Positions 3,100 to 62,132 of a stretch of DNA of 64,000 nt are shown in pieces. Position numbers and translations under genes: made by a program. This DNA is from Candidatus Peregrinibacteria bacterium (GTDB lineage Bacteria; Patescibacteriota; Gracilibacteria; UBA1369; JACRIC01), in NCBI GenBank assembly GCA_016188705.1, contig JACPHH010000014.1, positions 1 through 64,000 of the forward strand. The letters run 5' to 3'. A model generated the notes under the pieces. The model ran no database searches, was not told where the DNA came from, and was given only the letters and a program-made list of their open reading frames with translations. The first letter of the stretch is position 1; each line of letters opens with the position of its first letter.

Positions 3100-3416
3100 A
3101 TGCTGTCTTGATTTTCCATTTTTCGTTCAACCCGAAGGGAAAAGACGTATTTTGTCCATTTCTGCATTACTCCTTCTCGATGTACCTTTGGGTACACTCT
3201 TGTCGTCGTTCCTTGAACTGAACAAAATACGTCTCTTCCATCTGTAAAAATTTTATGTGAACACTGCCTAACATTTTTTTTAAAAAAAAATCGTATGATC
3301 CAGAATCCTACGTGTTTTATTTTGAAAAAAATAGAGAAAAGAACCTGAAGTAAGTCGATTTTTTAAAACATCACTGGAAGCTAGCCGGAAGAATTTTTAT
3401 TTTTTTTTAAAAAAAT
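3100..3416. repeat. Repeat-bearing intergenic region between tRNA-Arg and priA
   Basis: Positions about 3141-3238 form a large imperfect hairpin: AAGACGTATTTTGT at the left pairs with ACAAAATACGTCT at the right, with an inner TGTACC/GGGTACA stem. Positions 3234-3250 (TCTCTTCCATCTGTAAA) match the first codons of the SprT-like gene at 39904, and the preceding TTCCTTGAACTGAACAAAA also matches the region upstream of that gene. The family B motif TTTTATGTGAACACTGCCTA follows at 3251-3270. No gene is seen. Confidence 0.7.
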
Positions 3417-46687: not shown

Positions 46688-47488
46688 TCACAACTGATTC
46701 ATAAAGCGAAAAGGATTTTCTAAAAAAGATCGTAGACTGAATGATGGGGATTGAGGAGAAAATGTTTTAGGAATTTTGATATCTTTAATATCAATGTAAG
46801 ATATGATTCCCCTATCATCTCTGACCTCCAATGTATTTCTATTCATTAAGGAAAGTCTTACGTATTTAAATTTTTTTTCCTCCCCATATTCACTTATGGT
46901 GATTTCATCTCCTTCTCTTAGTTGAGCAATATATCTTACTTTTTCAGATCGTGATTCCCTAATAGGCTCCTCCTTAATAGGCCCTTCATTTGGGGCTGTT
47001 GCTGGGCATTCAGAATTCATTGTTTTTGCAATATTTTTCCTACAATATCTGCTCGGAGATGTTTGGTCGTTTCGGCTTGGATATTCTCTTTTTAGAGCTG
47101 TAATTGGATTGCTTGTTGGATTTTTTCTCATCATTCTCCACTCTGCGCGCCCTAAATGGCGCGCTGCTCCAAAATATCCTTCTCGATCCAGAGTTTTTCT
47201 CGTTGATGCTTTTAATCCTCTGAGTTCTCTTCTTTGCCCCTTGCTTAAGTCTCCTGTCTCCATGAGATATCTTATTCTTAGCACAGTCTCTTCACTAGTC
47301 CTGTTGATTTCCGATTTTAATTTTTCATCTTTTTCTTGAGTAGCTACAATTTGAGCTGATTGAACTGAAGCACGTTCAACCAATCGTCTATATCGTTCAT
47401 CAGGGCTTATATAATCTTCATCTTTATCTTTATCTTTATCTTCGTCTGAAGGTTTGCGATGTTGTCTTTCATTTCTAAATCTGGTCAT
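46688..47488 (-). CDS. Unknown 266-aa protein
   Basis: I do not recognise it. The N-terminus is polar with a DK repeat (DEDKDKDKDED), then a helical region (about 35-110) and a likely disordered stretch (115-180). The C-terminal part (about 185-240) has alternating hydrophobic residues (LREGDEITISEYGEEKKFKY, NTLEVRDDRGIISYIDI), like a small SH3-type beta barrel. No signal peptide or membrane helix. It converges with gyrB. A short hairpin (GGCAT/ATGCC) lies between them. Confidence 0.7.
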   Translation of the reverse strand: MTRFRNERQHRKPSDEDKDKDKDEDYISPDERYRRLVERASVQSAQIVATQEKDEKLKSEINRTSEETVLRIRYLMETGDLSKGQRRELRGLKASTRKTLDREGYFGAARHLGRAEWRMMRKNPTSNPITALKREYPSRNDQTSPSRYCRKNIAKTMNSECPATAPNEGPIKEEPIRESRSEKVRYIAQLREGDEITISEYGEEKKFKYVRLSLMNRNTLEVRDDRGIISYIDIKDIKIPKTFSPQSPSFSLRSFLENPFRFMNQL

Positions 47489-47881: not shown

Positions 47882-47896
47882 TAAAATTTTAGGGAT

Positions 47897-47928
47897 AAGG
47901 GAAAAAACAGTCTGTTATTTTTTCCCTT
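47897..47928. terminator. Bidirectional intrinsic terminator
   Basis: AAGGGAAAAAACAG pairs with TTATTTTTTCCCTT. The A-rich and T-rich arms give a T run in both directions, which suits the convergent 86-aa and 137-aa genes. Confidence 0.75.
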
Positions 47929-47940
47929 TGCGACAGCCAT

Positions 47941-47960
47941 TTTATGTGAACACTGCCTAG
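47941..47960 (-). repeat. Family B motif
   Basis: The minus strand reads CTAGGCAGTGTTCACATAAA, nine bases after the stop codon of the 137-aa gene. Other copies are at 3251, 7583, 30881, 50252 (partial) and 62113. Confidence 0.75.
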
Positions 47961-47969
47961 TCTCGAATT

Positions 47970-48383
47970 TTAATGTTTTTCGAGATCTGTTGTTAAGGCT
48001 GTTCCTGTTAAAACTTCACGCAGTTTTGTCCTTCTTTCTTTCAGTCCTCCATCTTCACCTAGACTATTTCCGTCAGCTCTGTAAACATTTAAGGCTGCTT
48101 CTAATAAGTCAGTATCCCCTGTCGCAAGTTTTTTCAATTTTGCAAGTGTTCCGCATTCTGCTTGAAGTTTTTGTACTATATCCGTCGTTGGCGGTATGCC
48201 TGTTGCCTCCTGTATCGCATGCAGCGCCGACAGCAAAGGTGTACTTGCAAATTTTGATCTTTCACGAGAATGGGCTGGAGGCACTTTTATTCCAGTTTCT
48301 CTAAATTCATCTGTTTCCAAAAGATCGCATAAATCAGGGTATTTTCTTATTTCTTGCGTGGATTCTCCACTAGTAGATGTCAT
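47970..48383 (-). CDS. SAM-riboswitch-controlled protein of unknown function
   Basis: A 137-aa soluble protein that I do not recognise. It starts with a polar segment, then has a helical core (ALHAIQEATGIPPTTDIVQKL, KLKKLATGDTDLLEAALNVY) and ends with a charged helix. One pair of cysteines (CDLL, ECGTL). No methyltransferase, transporter or methionine-pathway motif is seen. It is the only gene between the SAM-I riboswitch and the terminator, so its expression should fall when S-adenosylmethionine is plentiful; a role linked to methionine or SAM is inferred from this alone. No SD. Confidence 0.8.
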   Translation of the reverse strand: MTSTSGESTQEIRKYPDLCDLLETDEFRETGIKVPPAHSRERSKFASTPLLSALHAIQEATGIPPTTDIVQKLQAECGTLAKLKKLATGDTDLLEAALNVYRADGNSLGEDGGLKERRTKLREVLTGTALTTDLEKH

Positions 48384-48463
48384 GGTTTTGTGATTAAAAA
48401 GTAAAAAATTGCATAATGAAAATTTTATTATTGAGCTATGCGTTGAGCTTTGTTTTTTGTTAT

Positions 48464-48494
48464 ATAATAAAAAAATCTTTCCAACGAGAAAGAT
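48464..48494 (-). terminator. Riboswitch expression-platform terminator
   Basis: ATCTTTC-TCGTTG-GAAAGAT followed by seven or more T on the minus strand. The 5' arm ATCTTTC can instead pair with GAAAGAT of the aptamer 3' end (48524-48530), giving the antiterminator. Confidence 0.85.
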
Positions 48495-48517
48495 AAATAT
48501 GGCTGCTCAGGCCGTAG

Positions 48518-48630
48518 GTTTCATCTTTCCCAATTGCTTGGGGCGGATTTAGCACCACTTCCTGATGGCCATCTAAGGAGAGGTTGCTGTGGTTTCATAG
48601 GGCCGAATCCCTCCACCACTCTGGATAAAC
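48518..48630 (-). promoter_or_regulatory. SAM-I (S-box) riboswitch aptamer
   Basis: The minus strand shows all S-box hallmarks in order: GTTTATCCAGAG, GGTGGAGGGATTCGGCCC, TATGAAACC, CAGCAACC, then GGTGCTAAATCC, the P4 stem GCCCCAAGCAATTGGG and AAAGATGAAAC closing P1 (GTTT-ATC with GAT-G-AAAC, one bulged G). Binding of S-adenosylmethionine stabilises P1; this holds GAAAGAT in the aptamer and lets the downstream terminator form, so it is an OFF switch. It precedes the unknown 137-aa gene. Confidence 0.95.
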
Positions 48631-48644
48631 TGAATTGTGATTTA

Positions 48645-48672
48645 ATTATATATATTCTTTTTTCTCTGTCAA
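48645..48672 (-). promoter_or_regulatory. Consensus promoter of the SAM riboswitch
   Basis: TTGACA (48667-48672), spacer 16, TATAAT (48645-48650) on the minus strand, a perfect sigma-70 match. Transcription from about 48638 begins just before the aptamer. Confidence 0.9.
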
Positions 48673-48709
48673 TTTTTTTTTAAAAAGGTTTTTGTGGCGT
48701 CGAGTATCA

Positions 48710-48779
48710 TTGACTTTTTTTCGTGTTTGACTATACTTTTGGAGTATTCATGTACTTAATTTACTCTTAAATAGGAGGT
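48710..48779 (+). promoter_or_regulatory. rpsU promoter and perfect Shine-Dalgarno sequence
   Basis: TTGACT (48710-48715), spacer 16, TATACT (48732-48737). The leader carries AGGAGGT at 48773-48779, ten bases before the ATG. It is the only strong SD among the gene starts I inspected in this window. Confidence 0.85.
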
Positions 48780-48789
48780 ATTTTTTTCT

Positions 48790-62115: not shown

Positions 62116-62132
62116 GCAGTGTTCACATAAAA
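62113..62132 (+). repeat. Family B motif at a stop codon
   Basis: TAAGCAGTGTTCACATAAAA; the first triplet is the stop of the 866-aa gene, exactly as TAG of the same motif ends the protease gene at 7602. Confidence 0.8.

Follow-up and report, generated by a model that had tools for sequence, protein, structure and literature searches.

What does a SAM-I (S-box) riboswitch do in front of a gene that resembles no methionine or SAM gene? The 64,000-nt stretch of DNA analysed here (the window) raises this question with a single switch, followed by an ORF of 137 amino acids. Riboswitch control offers one of the few hints to what orphan genes do in uncultured bacteria with reduced genomes. We asked whether the switch is complete, whether the ORF is a gene, and how both came to lie where they do. 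The features of the locus are as follows.

48672-48645 (-), sigma-70 type promoter TTGACA-N16-TATAAT, 12/12 matches
48518..48631 (-), SAM-I (S-box) aptamer, RF00162, 78.6 bits vs 44.4
48520..48529 (-), antiterminator 5' arm GAAAGATGAA, overlapping the 3' strand of P1
48488..48497 (-), antiterminator 3' arm TTTATCTTTC, ten pairs with GAAAGATGAA
48468..48494 (-), intrinsic terminator, ATCTTTC..GAAAGAT stem followed by T7, hairpin -5.8 kcal/mol
47970..48383 (-), 137-aa orphan gene, sole gene under the switch, called from the ORF, codon score and length statistics
47882..48789 (no strand), putative lineage-specific 908-nt insert (switch plus gene) between a conserved 86-aa gene and an rpsU-like gene

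The riboswitch is complete

The initial annotation, made by reading the letters, had described a perfect promoter, a full S-box aptamer, a terminator with a T run and an antiterminator drawn from the aptamer's own strand. All four were borne out. The promoter agrees with the sigma-70 consensus at every position. The Rfam covariance model of SAM-I (RF00162) matched the minus strand at 48631-48518 with 78.6 bits (E 8.4e-17), well above the gathering cut-off of 44.4 bits, and the match is full-length, covering all 108 model positions (1-108/108). A genome search found no second SAM-I element in the 1.37 Mb, and this aptamer scores highest of all SAM-I in the class. Compared by eye, the pseudoknot bases covary between relatives: CGG/CCG here, AGG/CCT in G007 and TGG/CCA in G122.

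The expression platform is of the transcription-terminating type. The core stem of the terminator, ATCTTTC/GAAAGAT, forms seven pairs (48494-48475) and is followed by 7 T. Upstream, GAAAGATGAA can form ten pairs with TTTATCTTTC, and this pairing would open both P1 and the terminator, making the two folds mutually exclusive. The 3' strand of P1 is thus common to the aptamer and the antiterminator, with an intrinsic terminator as the alternative, as in RF00162 switches that terminate transcription. Relatives G007 and G122 have the same kind of platform.

The local antiterminator is predicted at -10.6 kcal/mol; at -5.8 kcal/mol, the stem of the terminator is weak. A generic terminator scan missed this terminator, which is too poor in G-C pairs to be listed. 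With ligand and pseudoknot left out of the ViennaRNA calculation, the antiterminated leader folds at -44.5, versus -41.6 for P1 plus terminator (the ligand state); the unconstrained optimum of the whole leader (-47.2) is a misfolded aptamer that corresponds to neither functional state. The modelled energies thus fit the expected switching logic only loosely.

Judged by its sequence, the riboswitch is genuine: a complete transcriptional SAM-I switch of a known kind, with an uncharacterised target. It shares with the terminating type of RF00162 the complete aptamer, the overlap of P1 and antiterminator, and the terminator with its T run, and differs in having an orphan gene of 137 aa, not a methionine or SAM gene, as its target.

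We propose, with a probability of roughly 0.75, that this is a functional SAM-I riboswitch through which abundant SAM shuts down transcription of a 137-aa gene specific to the lineage. The proposal draws on the score and completeness of the aptamer, the promoter, the mutually exclusive terminator and antiterminator with their overlap with P1, the same platform logic before metK in relatives, and the pseudoknot covariation seen by eye. It draws further on the ORF statistics, the synteny with G001 and the unlinked metK-ahcY pair that lacks a switch, all described below. We infer SAM binding, the direction of control and expression from the SAM-I family. Bound SAM would hold P1, the ATCTTTC/GAAAGAT hairpin would form and RNA polymerase would halt at the T run. 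When SAM, and hence methionine, is scarce, GAAAGATGAA of the aptamer would pair with TTTATCTTTC, no terminator would form and the 137-aa protein would be made.

The 137-aa ORF looks coding but has no recognisable relatives

The 137-aa gene seems monocistronic: the next possible gene on the same strand starts at 47488, past a convergent gene on the plus strand. A chance ORF is unlikely: among 5000 dinucleotide-shuffled versions of the 908-nt insert, only 0.9% contain an ORF of at least 137 codons. The codon score of the ORF is the best of the six frames and beats every overlapping spurious ORF tested; at 0.13 per codon, it is lower than that of known genes (0.21–0.30). No clear Shine-Dalgarno sequence precedes the ATG. 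The ORF thus looks coding, a judgement that we base on codon statistics and length because the protein has no relatives.

We found no convincing homologue in the 353 genomes of the class, and none in genome_contigs or viral_contigs with searches able to show only close relatives. Two class matches (E 0.001 and E 0.006) were rejected as homologues: one is a lysine-rich ORF that lacks SAM-I, the other a piece of 57 residues containing a stop. Searches of Pfam, NCBIfam, PADLOC, PHROGs and PDB sequences gave no usable match. AlphaFold, run without an alignment, returned an all-helical model at low confidence (mean pLDDT 62), so the protein is probably helical; the best Foldseek hit to this model (E 1.1) is meaningless, and no fold relative emerged. 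The initial annotation had called the gene unrecognised and the only target in cis, and so it appears after these searches. The target has no Pfam, NCBIfam or fold match that would place it in the S-box met regulon, and a methionine function of an unrecognised type is compatible with this result.

SAM-I elements of the class mostly precede metK

We wondered what SAM-I elements control elsewhere in the class. SAM-I was found at E 0.001 or better in 136 of 353 genomes, and metK lay downstream on the same strand at 82 of the 101 loci that we read in other genomes. The loci read come chiefly from the high-scoring end of the list, which leaves weak matches under-represented. The metK switches (those of G010, G009, G022, G007 and G122 among others) share the platform logic of the switch in the window, the nearest being ∼70–75% identical in the aptamer, but they precede metK, whereas here metK and ahcY lie on another contig and have no switch. 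A keyword search of the literature available returned nothing on SAM riboswitches in these bacterial groups.

In the genome under study, metK and ahcY are adjacent on contig C21, and no SAM-I was found upstream of this metK, even sub-threshold, at E up to 1. The metK genes of G001 (same family) and G002 also lack a switch, and in both the upstream gene resembles the same epimerase-type gene as here, the family being judged by eye.

These data bear on a second reading, in which the switch once stood before metK or another met gene and was moved or left behind, next to an ORF that arose by chance or is decaying and has no function. The usual place of SAM-I before metK in the class would agree with such a history, as would an orphan ORF with a codon score under that of known genes and a metK that has no switch of its own. 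However, none of the four elements (promoter, aptamer, terminator, antiterminator) is damaged, and no aptamer of the class scores higher, unlike what decay would leave. Aptamer resemblance cuts both ways: the metK switches of G010 and G022 are close, yet the closest aptamer among the loci read is the second, non-metK copy in G022 (80% identity). Moreover, in G000, G001 and G002 alike metK lacks a switch and follows a similar gene, and thus shows no sign of a recent move. We consider this second reading unlikely. That the terminated RNA is itself the product, for example restoring SAM feedback on a metK without a cis switch, has a precedent in SreA/SreB of Listeria, SAM riboswitch leader RNA acting in trans (PMC8079631), but is very improbable here: the leader is predicted to pair with the metK start region no better than with shuffled sequence (44% of shuffles as good) or with the starts of other genes.

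Switch and gene form an apparent insert among housekeeping genes

We next asked how the switch came to its present site. The locus in relatives runs gyrB, a small gene of the 86-aa type (in some), rpsU, prmC, prfA. In G001 (a genome that is only 80% complete), the 86-aa gene is followed directly by rpsU, prmC and prfA, with no switch at the locus. As G001 has a switch neither at metK nor at gyrB-rpsU-prmC-prfA, the switch and the 137-aa gene are most simply explained as a 908-nt insert specific to the lineage. The initial annotation had allowed for a switch that precedes a met gene in relatives, the gene being deleted here. Its first half holds, with metK at 82 of 101 loci; the deletion does not, since metK is present elsewhere beside ahcY without a switch and the host locus of G001 has none. 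On the sequence comparison, the insert is not the stump of a met gene deleted at this site. Switch and gene may have arrived jointly, or they may have been assembled on site among the conserved housekeeping genes.

Between gyrB and the 86-aa gene of the window, the opposite strand carries a 266-aa orphan (46688-47488, minus strand), and G022 (L176) has a different opposite-strand ORF, of 400 aa, upstream of its 86-aa-type gene. The window also contains a repeat, TTTATGTGAACACT, at 3252, 7584, 47941, 50252 and 62400 (+) and at 62118 (-), six copies at ≤1 mismatch versus 0.03 expected. Four of the copies extend to TTTATGTGAACACTGCCTA or nearly so, and one of the six is found where the 137-aa gene has its 3' end.

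Other small genes lie behind SAM-I elements

At about one in five of the loci read, the gene behind the switch is not metK, and many of these genes are small and unknown, showing that SAM-I is used outside metK in the class. These 19 of 101 loci include ahcY (G098, assigned by eye), a homocysteine S-methyltransferase (G166, PF02574), small unknown genes and a zinc-ribbon-like protein (G021, G073, G068 and G350, with a more divergent one in G169). By eye, none of the other non-metK targets looked related to the 137-aa protein.

The zinc-ribbon-like protein, about 85–115 aa with the motif VPxGLKKCxKCxxYKG, occurs in 5 of the 353 class genomes (G021, G073, G068, G350 and G008). In all five its gene lies directly behind a SAM-I element (L044, L051, L073, L094 and L202), that of G008 being sub-threshold at 22.4 bits, and the protein has no Pfam match above cut-off. 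Like the locus in the window, these loci combine a switch with a small unknown gene and are patchily distributed; unlike the 137-aa protein, which occurs in one genome and is unrelated by eye, their protein recurs across several families. The zinc-ribbon-like family is thus a better lead than the 137-aa gene for a new member of the SAM-I regulon.

As for what the 137-aa protein does, an accessory response to methionine or SAM shortage is our guess. It is conceivable, though we hold it doubtful, that SAM shortage switches on a protein whose function is new, its gene being among several small accessory genes brought under SAM-I control in this class outside the methionine pathway. At one locus of the survey (L053), two near-identical SAM-I elements lie ∼930 nt apart (G017:C2:293406-293508 and 294337-294439), and the ORFs behind each have their N-terminal sequence in common.
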